From contig NW_020312021.1 of the NCBI RefSeq assembly GCF_003144115.1, forward strand, positions 125,348 to 189,347: DNA of 64,000 nt. Reading direction: 5' to 3'. Below the pieces are notes generated by a model. That model had not been told where the DNA came from, searched no databases, and was given only the letters and a program-made list of their open reading frames with translations. A program made the translations under genes and the position numbers. This document shows positions 4,704 to 53,409 of this stretch, piece by piece (positions within the stretch are counted from its first letter, which is position 1; each line of letters begins with the position of its first letter). This DNA comes from Tilletiopsis washingtonensis (lineage: Eukaryota > Basidiomycota > Exobasidiomycetes > Entylomatales).

Positions 4704-6602
4704 CTACCGCGCATGCTTGGGCAGAGGAAGCAGCACGCTGCCGAGCTTCTCATCCCATTCCCCTCCCATGCGCTCACTCGCGCGTTTCAACTCCAACCAT
4801 CCCTCCGTACCCGACACGTAGTGCACGCCGAGCGAGCGTACGGCAGTCTCTTCGATGCGCGCTGCCAGATGGGCAGAGAGCATGCCGCGCAGCAGCATCA
4901 GCGAGAGCTCCTGCCCGCCCACGACGTCGAGCGGATGAGGGGCTTCGAGCTGCGCCAATGTGGAGGCCCGCACGTCTGGCGACGCGAACGAGAGGAGCCA
5001 GAGCACGTGGCGGCGACGAATGGACCGCGCGGCTCGTGTGCGCCAGCCTCCGGCTTGAGCCGTCGAAGAGGAAGAGAAGTAGCTCGCAAGGCTCGGGCCT
5101 GAGCGACTCCATCGGCGAGCAGTGTCAGCGCCGAGCTGCTCGGCGAGCGCAGGCGGCAACAGCAGCACGTCGGCAAAGAACACGGGCGAGAGGCTGTGGA
5201 TGGCCGTCGAGCCTGCCTCTGCTCGTCGAGGCGCCACGTCGATGCTGCGCGCCAACGGATCGGGCGAGCTCAATTTAAAGCCCACACCGTCGTCTTCCGC
5301 TGCTCGCAGCTTCGCAAACGCCTCCAAGCGCGCTCGAGCCGCCTCGTCAAAGTCGCTGAGGAGCTGCCAGCCCACGGCTCCACGTTCAGGCGCTCTGCCA
5401 GCCCGTGCAGCCTGTACGTCGTTCGGCACGCTCTCGCTGCCGCCCGGAGCGCGTGGATCCGGACGCGGAAAGACGGAGAGTCGCTTCTTGAAGTGCAGCG
5501 TGGCTGCCTCTTTGAGGATGCGGGCCAGTGGCAGTAGCAGATCAAACGGCTGCCGTGCCAGCGACGAGAGAAGACTGCGCGTCGTCAGGGGTGACACGAC
5601 CGTCGAGGTGAGCGACGCAAAGAGCTTCTTGCGCAGCGGCGCGTCGGGCGAAGCATCATCTGCCGGCGCGACGAGTAGCAAGAGACGCACGTCGATATGC
5701 GGCGTCGCTGCGTCATCTGCCCACAAAGGGCGCAGGAGCAGGCGATACCAGCCGCCACGGTCGTTGAACGGGCTGACGTGAAAGGCACGTTCGAACGTCC
5801 ACGCGTGTTCGAAGTGTCCTCGATGTCGCGAAGCGCCGCTCTTGAGTGCATCTTCCTCCACGCCCGCCTCGAGAACGTAGACGTGTCGCTCTGCAAACGT
5901 GTTATGCACCTCGAGCACGGCCAGCCAGAATGCGCCGCGCTCGCCGGGAGTAGGCGAGGGTCGATGGACGTAGTAGATGGTGAGAGGATTGATGCCTTGC
6001 ATGCCGAGCAATGCGGGCATGCACACCATCCACGTCTCGCCCAGGCCAGCGGACCACTCGGCGTAGGAAACACCGTCTTGAGGTCCAGCCAGGAGATAAC
6101 CTCGCTCTCGCAGCTCGTACGCCAGCTTGGCGCGAATGGAGCCTTCGACGAGAGTGCGCGAGGAAGAAGGCAGCTGCGGCAATGCGAGATGCAGATGCGA
6201 TCGAGGCTGAATGCCCGTCAGAAAGGGCCAGCGAGTCGCGGCAGCCGCACCGCGCGGGCGCACGCCCCGCCAGACAAAGGCAGAGGCGGCATCGCACAGG
6301 CCACGCTCGAGCGCTGCCAGGTCGAAGAGGCCGTAGAGCGCCGGATAGGCGAATGCATGCGGCGCGGGGATGAAGCGTGCATGTGCAACGCGTGCCGAGG
6401 AGAGATAGGCGCTCGCTGGTGTCGCCGCAGTGACTCGTGTGTGGCGAGCTCCCTTGCGGCGAGGCAGCAGCGAGAGGAGAGAGGGCACGGAGAGGAGCAG
6501 CAGCAGCGCTGGCACGGCAACATCGAGCGCGAGCGTGCGCAGCCAACTCGAGGTGTGCGCCGCGGCAGCTGCTGCGCCAACGCTGGCGGTGCCGTTGCCC
6601 AT
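4704..6602 (-). CDS. DUF1365-domain membrane protein, intronless
   Basis: A 632-aa protein in one exon. N-terminal residues about 18-47 form a Leu/Ala-rich hydrophobic segment, probably a membrane anchor. The body matches DUF1365 (PF07103): ARFIPAPHAFAYPALYGLFD near the start, then NPLTIYYVH, EVHNTFAERHVYVL, and the characteristic AFHVSPFNDRGGWYRL. In bacteria DUF1365 genes often sit beside cyclopropane-fatty-acid synthase and flavin amine oxidase genes, suggesting lipid modification; neither partner is in this window, and the biochemical role is unknown. The start codon chosen is the ATG directly before the hydrophobic segment. It is transcribed divergently from the Afi1-type gene. Lack of introns in an intron-rich neighbourhood is compatible with bacterial ancestry, but that is inference. 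Confidence 0.8.
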   Translation of the reverse strand: MGNGTASVGAAAAAAHTSSWLRTLALDVAVPALLLLLSVPSLLSLLPRRKGARHTRVTAATPASAYLSSARVAHARFIPAPHAFAYPALYGLFDLAALERGLCDAASAFVWRGVRPRGAAAATRWPFLTGIQPRSHLHLALPQLPSSSRTLVEGSIRAKLAYELRERGYLLAGPQDGVSYAEWSAGLGETWMVCMPALLGMQGINPLTIYYVHRPSPTPGERGAFWLAVLEVHNTFAERHVYVLEAGVEEDALKSGASRHRGHFEHAWTFERAFHVSPFNDRGGWYRLLLRPLWADDAATPHIDVRLLLLVAPADDASPDAPLRKKLFASLTSTVVSPLTTRSLLSSLARQPFDLLLPLARILKEAATLHFKKRLSVFPRPDPRAPGGSESVPNDVQAARAGRAPERGAVGWQLLSDFDEAARARLEAFAKLRAAEDDGVGFKLSSPDPLARSIDVAPRRAEAGSTAIHSLSPVFFADVLLLPPALAEQLGADTARRWSRSGPSLASYFSSSSTAQAGGWRTRAARSIRRRHVLWLLSFASPDVRASTLAQLEAPHPLDVVGGQELSLMLLRGMLSAHLAARIEETAVRSLGVHYVSGTEGWLELKRASERMGGEWDEKLGSVLLPLPKHAR

Positions 6603-7055
6603 GGCGCCGACGCAGCTGTGCGGCAGACGACTCCGCGGTGCAAACGATCCGTCACCTCAGCTCTGTACTCAAGGCAATGCAAGGCGTTGACAGGCCAAGC
6701 GACGCCGAGCACCTCGCCTCGCGACACGCCGCTGCGCCGGCGCTACCTCCACTCTGACTCGCGAGCTTCAGAGACGTGGAGCGGCAGCGGGAACGTGGCT
6801 TGTGTGCCAGGCGGACGATACGGCGGACGATGCGTGGCGGCTGCGGCAGCGGGTGCTGAGCGCTGCGATGGAGCTGAGTGTGGGGTGTGAGGGCTAGAAG
6901 AAGAGAGCGGTGAAGGAGATGCGCCACGGCTGAGGCAGCAGCAGCAGCCGACGCTCGAGCCACCTCTTCCCGCGGCAACAGAACGCGCGCCGAGCCAGGG
7001 GCTCGCTTCTCGCCGCCTCCCACCACCATCCCCGCCGGCGGCTGCAGCGTCAGCA
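6603..7055. promoter_or_regulatory. Divergent intergenic region (DUF1365 gene / Afi1-type gene)
   Basis: A 453-bp gap between two start codons pointing away from each other. No TATA box or repeated motif stood out. The right half is CAG/CTC-rich, as in other 5' leaders here. Confidence 0.5.
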
Positions 7056-44517: not shown

Positions 44518-44937
44518 CTAGAAGAGGGGCCCCGACGGCGGCGCGTTGCTTTGATCCTTGGCGTCGAGCGCGGCAAGATGGTCGACGAGCTCGTCCATCG
44601 GGCCTCTCGGCTGCTGCGTCGCCTGTTCCGCCGCCCGCTGCTGCTGCTGCTGCTGCTGTGCGCGCGGAGTCGGCACCAGCACGGCGCCCTGGCCCTGCTC
44701 GTCCCATCCGGGCGCCAGGCGATGCAGCTCGGCGCGGCGCGCCGCCTCGCGCCGCTCGCGCTCGGCGACGATGGCGCGCTCGAGGGTGAAGGGATAGACG
44801 AAGTAGTCGGCGAGCGAGGGCGGCAGAGGGTGCAGATCTTGAGGTGCGGCGATGGGCGGCGGGACACGCAACGAGGGGTCCTTGATGAGCGGCACGTGGG
44901 CCGAGGGCCCGTAGAGGATGGGCACGGAGGTGGACAT
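44518..44937 (-). CDS. Unknown small protein with polyglutamine run
   Basis: A 139-aa intronless protein. It begins MSTSVPILYGPSAHVPLIKD, followed by a Pro-rich segment and a well-formed block LPPSLADYFVYPFTLERAIV, which looks conserved in style. A charged helix (AERERREAARRAELHRL), a seven-glutamine run and a second block (PMDELVDHLAALDAKDQSN) follow. There is no signal peptide or membrane helix. I do not know the family. It shares a 236-bp divergent promoter with the aminopeptidase gene. Confidence 0.65.
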   Translation of the reverse strand: MSTSVPILYGPSAHVPLIKDPSLRVPPPIAAPQDLHPLPPSLADYFVYPFTLERAIVAERERREAARRAELHRLAPGWDEQGQGAVLVPTPRAQQQQQQQRAAEQATQQPRGPMDELVDHLAALDAKDQSNAPPSGPLF

Positions 44938-45173: not shown

Positions 45174-47689
45174 ATGCGCCTCGGCCCGTCCTTCGGCCGC
45201 ACCTCTCTCGCTCTCCGCTCGCTCCGCCCCTCTCCCACTCGCACGCTCCCGCTGCGTCGCCTCGCACGGCCCACCCTTCTCGCCTCGCCTCCCTCGCCGG
45301 TGCGCTTCGCCAGCATGGCCTCCGTGCCCTGGATCCCGCCGGCGCCCGGCTCCATCCCCGCGCCGCCGCGGCCCGAGTACGCAGACCGGCACACGCAGGG
45401 CAACATTGCCGATGTGCGCTCCACGCACCTGCACCTCGACTGGCGCGTCGACTGGGAGGCAAAGACGCTTGCCGGCAGCGTCGAGCATACCCTGCTCGTG
45501 CTCAAGAACGGCACCGACGCGCTCGTGCTTGACACTAGCTACCTCGACATCCAGCATGTCGACGTCGAGGGGCGCAAGTGCGACGCCTGGAAGCTGGCGG
45601 AGCGCAAGCCTGCGCTGGGCAGCGCACTGACCATTCCCATCGGCAAGCGCAAGGAGGGCGACAAGCTCAAGGTGCTCATTCGCTACAGCACTACTGCCAA
45701 GTGCACTGCGCTGGGCTGGCTGACTGCTGAGTAAGTGTCTTGCGCCGAGGCGCTCAGGGCCAAGCCATCGCGCCTGGGAAGACGCGCCGAGGACAGACTG
45801 GGCAGCAGTCACGGCGATGACGCCTTCATTGACTGACAGAGCACTCCTCGATCCAGGCAGACGGAGGGCAAGAAGATGCCGTTCCTCTACTCGCAGTGCC
45901 AGGCGATCCACGCACGCTCCATCGTGCCCGTGCAGGACTCGCCCTCTCACAAGCTCACCTACACGTCGCGCGTGCAGTCTTCGATTCCCATCCTCATGTC
46001 TGCGCTCGCCGCCGGTCGCATCGAGGCGACCGAGACGCACCCCGGCGACGCCGTCTCGGGCGAGCTCGAGTCGGGAGAGAAGGTGTATGAGTTCAAGCAG
46101 CCCATCGGCATCCCGAGCTACCTGATCGCCATCGTCGGCGGTGACCTCGTCTTCTCCGACTTGGGCCCTCGCGTCGGTGTCTGGGCCGAGCCGCCGATGG
46201 CCAAGCGTGCGGAATGGGAGTTCAAGACCAACGCCCATCGCTACCTCACTGCTGCCGAGGAGACGATCAGCCCCTACTCATGGAGCCGCTTCGACTCCGT
46301 CGTCCTGCCGCCGAGCTTCCCCTACGGCGGCATGGAGAATGCGAACCTCACGACGCTCACGCCGAGCTTGATCTGCGGCGATCGTTCGCAGTGCGATGTG
46401 CTGCTGCACGAGCTGTCGCATAGCTGGTCGGGCAACTTGACGTCGTGCGCGACGTGGAGCGAGTGAGTCACAGCCGCACTGGAGCGCTGCCCAGCTGCCT
46501 CCGTCTCATGTTCCGCTCCACAGCTTCTGGCTCAACGAGGGCATCAACGTCTGGATCGAGCGTCTGCTCCTCTCCATCGTGCACGGCCCCGAGGCAGGTC
46601 CGGCGCATCGCGGCCTGAGCTACATCATGGGCTCCAAGGCCCTCGCCGATGCCTTTGATCAGTTCAAGAACAACACGCGCTTCCGCCGCCTCGTTCCCGT
46701 CTATCACGCAGGCGAGGATCCGGACGATGCATTCTCCAGCATTCCGTACGAGGCTGGCTCAAACCTGATTCTGCATCTTGAAGATCTCGTTGGTGGCCTT
46801 GACCTCTTCCTTCCGTGAGTTTCTCGCGCCGTGTTTGATGCGAAGACGCAGGGCCGCTGACGGCAGCGCGCGACCACGCAGCTTCATTCGCTCGTGGTTC
46901 AAGACCTTCTACGACCGTTCCGTGACGACGCAGGAGTTCAAGCAGCATCTGAGCGACTACTACGCGAGCAACGAGGAGATCAGCAAGAAGATCAAGGCGA
47001 TCGACTGGGATGCTTGGCTGCATAATGAGAGCGGCAAGCTGCCGGTCAAGATGGAGTACGACGACACGCTCGCTGTGCAGGCGTTCGCACTGGCGGAGCG
47101 GTGGGAGAAGGTCAAGGGCAATGACACGGAGGGCTTTGGCAAGAAGGACATCGAGGTGAGCCCGTGCGCGCGAGAGCCTGTGCGCGCTGTGGCTGACGCT
47201 CTCGCCGCACTAGGGCTGGACGAGCGACCAGAAGGTCGGTGAGTACACATCAGCGCCCACAGCTAGCTTCATGCGCTCAGACATCGCCATCAGTCTTCCT
47301 GGAGCGGCTGCACCTCGGCCCGCACATCAGCGCAGAAGTCGCCTCGGCGCTCGACAAGCACTACGGCTTCAGCTCCGAGACGAACGGCGAGATCCTGCTG
47401 GCGTTCTTCCTTGTGGCGCTCGAGGACAAGAAGACGCAGTACGCAGAGAAGTGTGCGGCCTGGGTGCCGACGGTCGGCCGCATGAAGTATGCGCGCCCGC
47501 TGTACCGCTCGCTCTTCCTCATCAAGCCGGAGCTTGCGCGCGAGACGTTCGTCGCCAACCGCACCTTCTACCACCCCATCGCCGCCGCGCTGATCGAGAA
47601 GGTGAGTTCGCTACCCACATCCCTCCTTGCTCGTGCCGTGTCCTCAACGCGCCGTCTCCACTGCGCAGGATCTCGGACTCTCTGCTTAG
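45174..47689 (+). CDS. Leukotriene-A4-hydrolase-type aminopeptidase (M1 family)
   Basis: Zinc aminopeptidase related to yeast Lap2 and human LTA4H. Exons 45174-45730, 45857-46462, 46524-46814, 46882-47155, 47214-47238 (25 nt), 47294-47601, 47669-47689 give 693 aa. The substrate signature is PYGGMENANLTTLTP. The zinc site HELSH is at residues 370-374, with the third ligand Glu at 393 in FWLNEG, matching HEXXH-X18-E. The C-terminal helical domain ends LIEK-DLGLSA. The first 47 residues are Arg/Ser/Pro/Leu-rich without acids, like a mitochondrial presequence, and an internal in-frame ATG at 45,315 (MASVPWIPP) would give a normal cytosolic enzyme, so dual targeting is likely. The final intron has a second acceptor that joins this frame to the next gene (see findings). 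Confidence 0.93.
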
Positions 47690-47755
47690 ACACCCTCTCC
47701 TCCATCCTCCTGTCTCTCTCTATTATCACTTGTTCAGGACCTCGGCCTCAGCTCA
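47602..47755 (+). other. Alternative-acceptor region linking aminopeptidase and tRNA isopentenyltransferase
   Basis: From the donor at 47,602 two acceptors are usable: CTGCGCAG ending 47,668 (67-nt intron) and CTTGTTCAG ending 47,737 (136-nt intron). The first yields Asp-Leu-Gly-Leu-Ser-Ala-stop; the second yields Asp-Leu-Gly-Leu-Ser-Ser and continues in frame into ATG 47,756. Only 66 bp separate the first stop codon from that ATG, leaving little room for a separate promoter. Actual use of both sites needs transcript data. Confidence 0.65.
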
Positions 47756-49563
47756 ATGTCAACTGTAAAGCCATCGCGGCACGTCGTGACCATCATCGGC
47801 TCAACGGGCACGGGCAAGTCGCAGCTGGCCGTCGAGGTGGCGCAGGCTCTGCAGGCGCGAGACGGTCGCTTCGGCGCGTACGACGGCGCAGAGGCCGTCT
47901 CGGCTGACAGCATGCAGATGTATCGCGGCCTCGACGTCATCACGAACAAGGCGACGCGCGAGGAGATGCAGGGCGTCAAGCATCACCTCATGGACTTTCT
48001 CGAGCCCGGCGAGCAGTACACTGTGGGCGAGTTCGTGCGCGAGGCAGGCGCGCTGGTGAGCGGCGCTTCGGCTTCCGTCGGCAGACTCCAGAATGCTGAC
48101 GTGCGCCTGGCGACAGATCGAGTCGTGTCATGACGAGCGCAAGGTGCCAATCGTGGTTGGCGGCACCACGTACTACGTTCAGCATCTGCTCTTTCCCGGC
48201 CGGCTGGTCTCGCTGCAGCGCAAAGACGAGCAGCGCTGGAGCGACGACGAGGAAGCTCCGCCGGCGTTGAGCGCCACTGCCGCCGCTGCTCTGCAGCAGC
48301 ACTTGTCTGTCCTCACAGAAGAGCAGCAGCAAGCATGGGCGGCGCTCGCCGCCTCGCGTCCGGGTAAGCTGCCAGAGCACGTCGGCGACGCGGCGCTGTG
48401 GGGCCTCCTCGACACGCTCGATCCCGCCATGGCTCGGCGCTGGCACTGGCGCGACACCCGCAAGGTTGGGCGCAGCCTGCGTGTCCTTCTTGAGACGGGC
48501 CGGCGTCACTCGGAGTGGATCGAGGAGCAGCAGCGACAGGACAGCTCGAGCAGGAGAGCTGAAGCCGTCAAGGACGCCGGCGGCGCCGCGGCTAAGCATC
48601 TTGTGCTGTGGGTATGGTGCGAGCCTGAGACGCTGCAGAGACGCCTGGCTGCCCGAGTCGGAAAGATGGTCGAGGTGAGGTCGGCTGTCTGCCTTGGCAC
48701 AGAGCGGGGCTCACTCTTTGCAACATCAGCGCGGCCTGCTTGCCGAGATCCAAGAGCTGCGGACCAAAGGCGCCGACGTCGACTACACTCGCGGCATCTA
48801 CCAGGCAATCGGTGCGTCCACTCTCTTTCTGCGGCACGCCTCTGCCTTGCGCTGACACATCGGCAGGCTACAAGGAGTTCGCCTCATTCCTGGCGCACTG
48901 CGACGGCGGCAGCACCGACGACGCCGAGGGCAAGCGTCTCTTCGCCCACGCGCTCGAGCGCATGCAGATCGGCACGAGGCAGTACGCCAAGTACCAGACC
49001 AAGTGGATCCGCAACACGCTCGCGCCCGAGGTCGCCGAGGCGGACGAGGTCGACTTCTTCTTGCTCGACGCCACTGGTGAGTGACGTGAGCATGCCGTGC
49101 TCAGTGACGCAGACTCATGCCGTCCATGCAGATCTGTCCAGGTGGAAGGAGAACGTTGGCGGCCCGGCGCTTGACCTAGTCTCGAGTGAGTCGCGTCGCT
49201 GATCAGCAAGCGTTCGTCTTGGCTCACGACGCTCTCGCAGAGTTCCTCAACGACGCGCCTCTGCCCGATGCCCGCAGTCTCAGCGCTGCAGCAGCCTCAC
49301 AGCTCCCGCAAGCACCGCGCTCGCTGGCCGATCCGCTCGGTCGCAACGCCATGGAGGTGTGCACGGTCTGCACCAAGGACGCAGCCACGCCCGTACTTGT
49401 GCGACTGGACGACATGCAGGCGCACATCCAGACGCGCTCGCATCGCCTTGCCTCGCGCTCGACACAAAGAGCGGCACCGGATCCAGAGGTCGTGGCGCGG
49501 AAGCGCGAGGAACGCAGACGGGTGCGCGAGGGCCTGTTGACGGCACAGGCAGAAGAGCAATGA
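47756..49563 (+). CDS. MOD5: tRNA dimethylallyltransferase (isopentenyltransferase)
   Basis: Adds an isopentenyl group to A37 of certain tRNAs in mitochondria and cytosol, using dimethylallyl diphosphate from the FPP pathway. Exons 47756-48055, 48117-48674, 48730-48811, 48867-49076, 49132-49185, 49241-49563 give 508 aa. The P-loop is IIGSTGTGKSQLAVEVA at the N-terminus, followed by SADSMQMYRGLDVITNKAT and HHLMDFLEPGEQYTVGEF. PIVVGGTTYYVQHLLF is the tRNA/DMAPP-binding segment, and GIYQAIGYKEF and TRQYAKYQTKWI are further family landmarks. The C-terminal part has the eukaryote-specific zinc finger CTVCTKDAATPVLVRLDDMQ...H...H. The frame is also open upstream through the aminopeptidase's alternative last exon, so a fused 1201-aa product is possible. 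Confidence 0.93.
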
Positions 49564-51714: not shown

Positions 51715-53349
51715 TCAGGCCCACAGAGCGAGCACAGACTGGCGGACGGAGTAAGGGTCAGCGATGCACATGCATGGCGGCAGCCGGCGGCACGTACCAT
51801 GGCGGCAGCACCAAGCGTGAGCGCAGTGACGGCGGCAATGGCGCGGCCCAGCGGCGCGCCCGACATCGTCTTATTGTTGATGAAGTCGCCGGCAATGAGC
51901 TCGACGAGCGCTGTTGGAGAATCAAGCGGTCAGCCACCGTGATGGGTCATCGGCCAGAATCGCGACGCACCAGTGTACAGCAGAATGCCGGCCGAGATCG
52001 AGTCGAGAATGCCAAGAGCCAAGAGCGTGGACCGGTCGTTGGTGTTGAAGGACCGACGCGCTCCAATGCCGATCGCAATGCCCACCGGCGTCGTCACGGC
52101 GTACGCTCCGCACATGATCGTCTTCTGCAGCCAGCCGGCGGTCGTCGAAGGCAGCAGCGCGATGCGAGCGCCGAGTGCGAGACCCTCGAAGAGTTGGTGG
52201 AAGGTGATTGCGATGAAGAGCGGCTGTGCAGACGAGTGAGTCAGATGCGAGGGTCTGGCATCTCAACGCGGTGCGACTCACCACCCAGCCCTCGCCATTG
52301 CTAGCGCCGAGCGTGACGCCAATGATGATCGAGTGGAAGATGATGCCCGCCTCGAGCATGAGCACGTCGTACTTGCGCAGCTTGGCCTGTGCGGCTGTGG
52401 GGACGTCCTGCGAGGCGACGTCCGAAGAGGCAGACTCGCTGTCGCTCTGCAGCTTCGACTCGGGGTCGTGCGAGCCCTGCGACAGCGGCCGCGACGCTGC
52501 TGCAGCGGCAGCGGCGCGCTGGCGAAGCGCGCGCAGCACGAAGACTTGAGTGATGGTCAGCCTTGGTAGAAAGAGGCGCGGAGAGGGCGACTCACAGTCA
52601 ACGACAAAGACAAGCCACACGGCGCCCATGGCAATCGCAGGGCTAGCAGCCTCGTACACGAGCGTGCCGATGCACTCGTTGGACATGAAGATGAACGCGT
52701 GGAAGAGCAAGTGGACAAAGGCGGTCGAGAGGATGATGCCCGTGCCGAAGTGCTTGAGCAGGAAGAAGAGCTGGCCAAGCACGCTGGTGGGCGCGTCGCT
52801 CGGCTCGGGCTTGCGACGCAGGATGTTGGGCAAACCGGCACCGAGCGAGGCGGCGATGAGCAGCACGAAGACGGCGGCGATCTGCAGGCGGATCGACTGG
52901 TCGGTGTAGGGCGCAAGGCCGCAGCCGTACTCCTCGGAAGGACCGTGCGAGTGGCCGGCGTGCGAGTGGCCGGAGTGGTCATGCCCCGAGTGGTCGTCGC
53001 CGTGGTCGTGGCCAGAGTGGTCCACAGAGCCGTCGGCAAGCGGGCAGTCCCAGTGATCGCCGTGCAGCACGCAGTTCGGGATTCCTGTCGTTCGAGCGTC
53101 AGTGTGCTGACTCTCTCTGCCATCGGCGCAGCACTCACCAGTCGGCGACGGCTCGACGGTAACAGTGACTGGCGTGCCGGAGCGCGTGACGACAGCGACG
53201 GGCACGAGCGAGCCGCCAATGTTCAGCTCCGTGACGGGAGATGCCTCCTGGCGCCTAGCCATGGCGGCCGGCGTAGGACGTGGCGCCACATCCGCAAGCA
53301 CGGTGGCCGCGAGGCTGAGCGTCAGCGTGGAGAGGAACGGGAAACGCAT
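51715..53349 (-). CDS. ZIP-family zinc transporter with His-rich ectodomain
   Basis: Plasma-membrane zinc importer of the Zrt1/Zrt2 type. Exons 53139-53349, 52596-53084, 52282-52544, 51971-52223, 51798-51910, 51715-51738 give 450 aa. Signal peptide MRFPFLSTLTLSLAATVLA, then an ectodomain with HDHGDDHSGHDHSGHSH. Helices follow: IRLQIAAVFVLLIAASLGAG, FGTGIILSTAFVHLLFHAF, IAMGAVWLVFVVD. The signature metal-binding helices are EAGIIFHSIIIGVTLG and FIAITFHQLFEGLALGAR, created across intron 3. The C-terminus ends SVLALWA from a 24-nt last exon, the typical end of the family. The usual His cluster in the loop between helices 3 and 4 is missing; that loop is Ser/Ala-rich. It is transcribed divergently from the Pra1-like gene, as in other fungi, suggesting joint control by zinc status. 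Confidence 0.93.
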
Positions 53350-53409
53350 GCTTGAGAGATGGGAGGACGGTGGAGCTGGAAATCAGCCGTACTTCGCGGC
53401 CACCGATGC

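Follow-up and report, generated by a model that had tools for sequence, protein, structure and literature searches.

Alternative 3' splice sites predicted to yield either a free aminopeptidase or an aminopeptidase-tRNA isopentenyltransferase fusion from one transcription unit in Ustilaginomycotina

The stretch of DNA analyzed here (64,000 nucleotides of contig NW_020312021.1 of Tilletiopsis washingtonensis, referred to below as the window) carries a gene for an M1 aminopeptidase of the leukotriene-A4-hydrolase type (AP) and, downstream on the same strand, a gene for a MOD5-type tRNA isopentenyltransferase (IPT). Our analysis points to an alternative 3' splice site in the last AP intron, through which one transcription unit would give either the free AP or an AP-IPT fusion. 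This arrangement appears to recur across the Ustilaginomycotina, with the fusion probably being the normal source of IPT in many members, and we put the probability of this reading at about 0.8. In the mechanism that we propose, AP and then IPT would be transcribed as a single unit. If acceptor 1, the nearer of the two, is used for the last AP intron, DLGL(x) and a stop codon would be added, and the free AP would result. If the donor is instead joined to acceptor 2, this stop would be skipped and a second copy of the C-terminal tag would be added, which would complete the AP fold before the product runs via a short linker into IPT. Both mRNAs would be made, the bifunctional fusion would be stable and active, and the two start codons of AP would send IPT to mitochondria and cytosol.

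One donor and two acceptors in the last AP intron

The sixth AP exon ends with HPIAAALIEK in phase 0 and is followed by the donor GTGAGT at position 47602, which is common to both acceptors. The short form of the intron (47602 to 47668, 67 nt, acceptor GCAG) leads to a terminal exon at 47669 to 47689 that reads GAT CTC GGA CTC TCT GCT TAG, or DLGLSA and a stop, for a free AP of 693 amino acids. The long form (47602 to 47737, 136 nt, acceptor TCAG) is likewise in phase 0 and leads to an exon at 47738 to 48055 that begins GAC CTC GGC CTC AGC TCA (47738 to 47755, DLGLSS) and continues without a stop through the IPT ATG at 47756 and the Walker A sequence GSTGTGKS, for a fusion of 1,201 amino acids. 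Only 66 bp (47690 to 47755) separate the first stop from the IPT ATG. The two tags are identical at 10 of their 12 leading bases, and their first five residues are the same with codons that differ synonymously, including TCT versus AGC for serine. A sequence-only reading of the window had described this intron, the two ends, the 1,201-residue product, the short interval, and the synonymous codons, and our translation reproduced each of them.

The two strands of the window together contain 3,521 YAG trinucleotides, and exactly 2 of them, the two acceptors, are followed by DLGLS; a chance origin of the second DLGL was thereby ruled out. Two more AGs lie between the acceptors. The one at 47689 is part of the TAG stop and, if used as an acceptor, would give an in-frame fusion that is 16 residues longer, and the one at 47751 is out of frame. 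In its short form, the dual intron contains no YTNAY branch-like motif, which is present in all 10 other introns of AP and IPT, and the pyrimidine fraction from -25 to -4 is highest at acceptor 2 (0.82; the runner-up among 11 introns has 0.77). These features of a single intron fit weak, selectable splicing and are proof of nothing.

A recent duplication as the sole origin of the second tag was rejected, as both tags are present, and diverged, in relatives. Residues 1 to 75 of the Meira miltonrushii IPT model P0155 consist of three 24-residue units, each starting with MGQD, ahead of the P-loop. This repeat suggests a route of acceptor-plus-tag duplication, as if the unit had been triplicated.

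The duplicated tag is an ordinary AP C terminus

The motif [KRQ][DE][LIV][GKAS][LIVA] followed by at most eight residues closes 51 of 53 outgroup APs (P0084 to P0136, among the best 120 matches listed), and the yeast AP structure 2xpy has the C terminus QDLGL. The acceptor 1 isoform of the window, with KDLGLSA and a stop, has an end of this DLxL type, and the annotated free APs P0039 and P0042 (Ustilago nuda and Sporisorium scitamineum) finish with IEKDLGL. DLGL is thus a conserved terminus of the enzyme, so that the free AP made through acceptor 1 would be of the usual form, and acceptor 2 would supply this terminus a second time ahead of IPT.

Fused models and tags in relatives

A search with the junction region, in which the 7,997 best candidates were scored, returned 24 proteins, 11 of which have both AP and IPPT domains, and a search with AP (best 120 of 2,446) added the fused models P0027 from Exobasidium rhododendri and P0053 from Malassezia vespertilionis. 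At least 13 fused AP-IPT models are therefore at hand, 9 of them from named Ustilaginomycotina species; the genera include Pseudozyma, Melanopsichium, Malassezia, Exobasidium, Tilletiaria, and Sympodiomycopsis. The junctions are IEK-DLALTN (P0001), IEK-DLGLIS (P0002), IEK-DLGLVA (P0004 and P0005), IEK-DLNLAQ (P0009), IAS-DLALPRR (P0027), and IRK-DLAPSP (P0053), and those of P0001, P0004, and P0005 are joined exactly. Other models read through the intron and have an AG-capable codon followed by a tag directly ahead of IPT (P0006, GQ/DLGLAG; P0008, LQ/DLNIAS; P0018, AQ/DLALPI), and the same combination is found in the separate IPT models P0145 (MQ/DLGLP), P0143 (VQ/DLSLS), and P0149 (SQ/DLHIA). 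The sequence-only reading had named a second DLGLS and its open frame in relatives as a check on the splicing proposal; at the protein level, a DLGL-like tag with an open frame does recur.

P0004 and P0005 have one junction in common and look like the same sequence, one of them being extended at the N terminus. Proteins labeled lgn frequently read through donors, and this source looks like unspliced open reading frame (ORF) calling; P0004 and P0005, also lgn, have a precisely joined junction, which resembles that of a cDNA contig or an allele that may have lost the intron. Fusion gene models are already public, for example under the name "leukotriene-A4 hydrolase." The sequence-only reading knew of no described coupling of these two enzymes. 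We found no paper on these models in the open-access literature, but the fusion itself is, in correction of that reading, already present in databases. The IPT-only proteins P0014, P0157, and P0161 (Tilletia horrida and Thecaphora frezii) are publicly named "Leucyl aminopeptidase yscIV," a label that was probably transferred from fused relatives. In addition, the IPT models P0013 and P0016, which may be true fusions or merged models, also bear a PF03901 domain.

The free-AP acceptor can be placed in read-through tails

Where a model reads on through the donor, the peptide read from the intron can be back-translated. We asked if such a peptide can encode, in a shifted frame, YAG/GAY-Leu-Gly-Leu, zero to three further codons, and a stop; as an alternative, a frame-0 end of [QKE]D[LI][GAS]L with no more than three residues after it was also accepted. 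A fixed rule selected 36 proteins from P0001 to P0136 that read on through the donor. The tails of 27 of these fit acceptor 1 with its stop, where residue shuffles give an expectation of 0.78. When only the shifted frames are counted, 21 of the 36 tails accommodate DLGL, and 11 permutations of its letters are each accommodated by 0 to 3 tails. An earlier, hand-picked list gave 22 of 26 versus 0.76 expected and is superseded by the rule-selected set. At the protein level, both acceptors thus appear to be conserved across the clade, acceptor 1 by way of back-translation.

Many relatives appear to lack a start codon for a separate IPT

For a survey of what precedes the P-loop, 126 P-loop proteins were collected, 53 of which were excluded because they have fewer than 12 upstream residues. 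The remaining 73 include 15 with a tag match, namely, the window, 13 entries from relatives, and the ascomycete protein P0020, whose match is taken as chance. In 11 of the 13 tagged entries, no methionine lies between the tag and the P-loop; P0006 and P0009 have one. The stand-alone IPT models of Ustilago esculenta (P0147), Sporisorium reilianum (P0151), and Thecaphora frezii (P0161) start at or just after the DSMQ methionine, past the P-loop, as do P0152, P0159, and P0164. Where IPT has no start codon of its own, as in many members, the fusion is probably its normal source. The evidence here goes further than the earlier claim, in that several relatives appear to have no methionine from which a separate IPT could begin.

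A number of points weigh against the splicing proposal. The relatives were judged from protein models and not from DNA, with acceptor 1 being placed by back-translation, and the merging of adjacent genes is a frequent annotation error. No tag is present in the fused models P0007, P0010, and P0012, and P0003 has just QDIAV after other residues. Nine of the 36 read-through tails do not fit the acceptor 1 pattern, and the 27 that do are not 27 independent events, because the rows are related and five share the tail VSFAQAPTLQDIGL. The model P0218 from Mycena, an outgroup, is truncated at the same DSMQ methionine, so that this truncation is not clade specific and is weak evidence by itself. Furthermore, 5 of 17 IPT models linked to an AP (P0141, P0146, P0153, P0165, and P0237) are untagged and begin with a methionine that, as judged by eye, lies at least 10 residues before the P-loop, and a separate IPT start is possible in these five, although an ORF model starting at that methionine would hide a tag upstream. 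Finally, the ATG comes directly after the tag in the window, and an IPT start of its own is possible there as well.

These last points would be expected if AP and IPT were two independent genes 66 bp apart, with the IPT promoter in the AP tail, translation starting at ATG 47756, and the second DLGL being a relic or an IPT leader. The usable ATG behind the tag in the window, the five linked models that start with a methionine past the expected tag position, and an ATG just before the tag in P0145 (MQ/DLGL), P0155 (MGQ/DLSL), and P0143 (MLVQ/DLSL) speak for such an arrangement. However, a relic is unlikely to keep a phase-0 AP C terminus behind an acceptor-like codon in many lineages, and independent genes do not account for the tagged entries without a methionine ahead of the P-loop. 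In addition, the Tilletia IPT models P0014, P0150, P0157, and P0158, for which no contig shared with AP was seen, have their own methionine and no tag. We therefore consider two independent genes unlikely.

A fusion made constitutively through acceptor 2, with the first DLGL and stop as a decaying remnant, would agree with the precisely joined junctions in P0001, P0004, and P0005. It does not explain why acceptor 1 and its stop can be recovered from three-quarters of the read-through tails, nor why P0039 and P0042 are annotated as free APs with an intact end, and we regard it as very unlikely. Stop codon readthrough of the acceptor 1 mRNA, with acceptor 2 unused, would also fuse AP and IPT in the window, where the acceptors are 69 nt apart and the TAG at 47687 shares the frame of 47738, a point not raised in the sequence-only reading. 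As an explanation, it is nevertheless hardly credible, because it leaves a second DLGL behind CAG unexplained and because in P0006, P0008, and P0018, in each of which both acceptors can be placed within one protein, the inferred spacing is 103, 82, and 172 nt, none a multiple of 3, so that the first stop and IPT are out of frame and readthrough cannot join them. As a general route, readthrough was rejected on the basis of these three relatives. Since their inferred acceptors differ in frame, alternative splicing is left as the simple route to both ends, and it is this frame mismatch, together with the recurring tags and the 27 fitting tails, that supports at the protein level the free AP or AP-IPT splicing proposed in the sequence-only reading.

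Linkage and history of the AP-IPT arrangement

When 110 AP and 68 IPT rows were entered, 17 separately modeled AP/IPT pairs on contigs of equal size were found. No outgroup AP was among them, in a comparison from which most outgroup IPT rows were left out. In a tree of 64 AP sequences, the window AP is sister to that of Ceraceosorus bombacis with a support of 1.00, and 15 of the 17 linked APs are present, all within the Ustilaginomycotina side. Linked or fused rows come from Tilletiaria, Malassezia, smuts, Exobasidium, Meira, and Jaminaea/Sympodiomycopsis. No contig shared by AP and IPT was seen for Tilletia, which does not prove an unlinked state. The AP and IPT models of C. bombacis come from contigs that differ in size, and the IPT model of this species, P0011, in which no methionine occurs in the 95 residues shown ahead of the P-loop, is fused to a methyltransferase-like domain (PF01170, elsewhere named tRNA guanine-10-N2-methyltransferase). 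In this species, without linkage to AP, IPT may have a different fusion partner. The AP-IPT arrangement looks ancestral to much of Ustilaginomycotina and lost in Ceraceosorus, a history that we infer, since the deep nodes of the tree are poorly supported (0.18, 0.33, and 0.83). No relative was recovered when contigs of prokaryote genomes were scanned for stray DNA of fungal origin.

Predicted structure and N-terminal extension

The fusion P0001 from Pseudozyma hubeiensis was modeled with AlphaFold2 from a 44-row alignment (mean predicted local distance difference test [pLDDT] score, 88.6; predicted template modeling score, 0.61). In this model, the tag marks the end of the last AP helix, IPT begins its first strand at residue 643, and the linker residues 634 to 638 have a pLDDT below 50; in this geometry, a short tether could hold the two enzymes next to each other. 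In the listed Foldseek rows, the best matches are confined to the AP half.

The first AP start in the window, at 45174, adds an arginine-rich extension of 47 residues without acidic residues, which resembles a mitochondrial presequence. Basic extensions with at most one acidic residue before a second methionine were noted by eye in 16 other rows within P0005 to P0074. A link between fusion and presequence was upheld in part only, as such an extension is also present in P0059 from Tilletia, with a similar one in the chytrid protein P0023. If the extension targets mitochondria, the fusion would carry IPT there.

Relation to known systems

The human MOCS1A/MOCS1B gene is bicistronic, and splicing that skips a stop codon yields a two-enzyme fusion from it, with the free first protein keeping a required C terminus. 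The enzymes and the lineage are other than those of AP-IPT, the fusion variants arise by other splice choices, and no duplicated C-terminal tag is known for them. The window IPT belongs to the same family (PF01715) as the yeast Mod5 and TRIT1-type enzymes. Yeast Mod5 reaches both mitochondria and the cytosol through two start codons; unlike Mod5, the AP-IPT fusion would have a whole aminopeptidase as its N terminus. A fungal parallel is SKI7/HBS1, which, according to PMC3597508, is likewise one gene for two functionally distinct proteins: the ascomycetes tested use two alternative 3' splice sites, an arrangement conserved over deep time, and the dual products were demonstrated by reverse transcription-PCR and Western blotting. 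The predicted pair of in-phase acceptors for one donor in the window is of the same kind. However, the splice choice at SKI7/HBS1 affects a segment inside a single protein, and both basidiomycetes studied rely on exon skipping (PMC3597508), whereas the choice predicted from sequence at AP-IPT would attach an unrelated second enzyme, with the terminal tag of the first being duplicated. Polycistronic readthrough transcripts of mushroom-forming fungi, as described in PMC4503453, also span more than one locus with coding potential kept, but have separate frames on one RNA, whereas splicing is predicted to unite the AP-IPT frames in a single protein. We found no description of an AP-IPT fusion, which, for open-access papers only, is weak evidence of absence; in the same literature, no paper was found on leukotriene A4 hydrolase with Malassezia and tRNA, and passages of PMC8199642, which deals with Ustilago esculenta and its host, contain nothing on the fungal IPT.

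If the splicing proposal is correct, two unrelated enzymes have been joined across a subphylum, duplication of the tag at the C terminus of the first enzyme makes both forms complete, and the lack of the catalytic P-loop in several stand-alone smut IPT models would be accounted for. It is conceivable that in many Ustilaginomycotina, IPT, and with it tRNA N6-isopentenyladenosine (i6A) and the tRNA-derived cytokinins, is made solely as the C-terminal half of an aminopeptidase through acceptor 2, that it is dual targeted by the two starts, and that the balance between peptide turnover and tRNA modification is set by which acceptor is used; we regard the chances of this fuller version as evenly balanced. 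In Ustilago maydis, deletion of UMAG_10043 was reported to abolish cytokinin production and reduce virulence (PMC7680852). If the U. maydis locus is built as in its relatives, this deletion may also hit an aminopeptidase gene.

The locus and its neighbors

AP has seven exons and encodes 693 amino acids from ATG 45174 or 646 from the second in-frame ATG at 45315, at which MASVPW opens the enzyme core. On the forward strand, the exons upstream of the dual intron lie at 45174 to 45730, 45857 to 46462 (with the zinc motif HELSH), 46524 to 46814, 46882 to 47155, 47214 to 47238 (25 nt), and 47294 to 47601. IPT has six exons and encodes 508 amino acids from ATG 47756; the exons downstream of the acceptor 2 exon, on the same strand, lie at 48117 to 48674, 48730 to 48811, 48867 to 49076, 49132 to 49185, and 49241 to 49563, the last including the stop and a CxxC..H....H tail that we take to be zinc finger-like.

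In the fusion, Pfam identifies Peptidase_M1_N, Peptidase_M1, Leuk-A4-hydro_C, and IPPT. The AP half matches PF17900, PF01433, and PF09127 (65.9, 129.5, and 110.7 bits) and has its HExxH as HELSH, and the IPT half matches PF01715 at 209.5 bits and has the P-loop GSTGTGKS. AP may have aminopeptidase or epoxide hydrolase activity, and the fused IPT may form i6A at tRNA position 37 (i6A37). In a domain search of the whole assembly (18.7 Mb, 32 contigs), PF01715 matches are confined to three exons of the AP-IPT locus and PF09127 to one place in the same locus.

RNA family and tRNA scans of the window gave no matches. A frame on the reverse strand at 44518 to 44937, without a Pfam match at an E value of 0.001, diverges from AP at a distance of about 235 bp from its start, and a shared promoter is possible. 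On the other side, a convergent neighbor with a nuclear cap-binding NCBP3 domain (PF10309; 49735 to 50949, reverse strand) lies 171 bp beyond the IPT stop. Elsewhere in the window, the reverse strand encodes a ZIP zinc transporter (PF02535) at 51922 to 53382 and a DUF1365 protein (PF07103) at 4704 to 6656.

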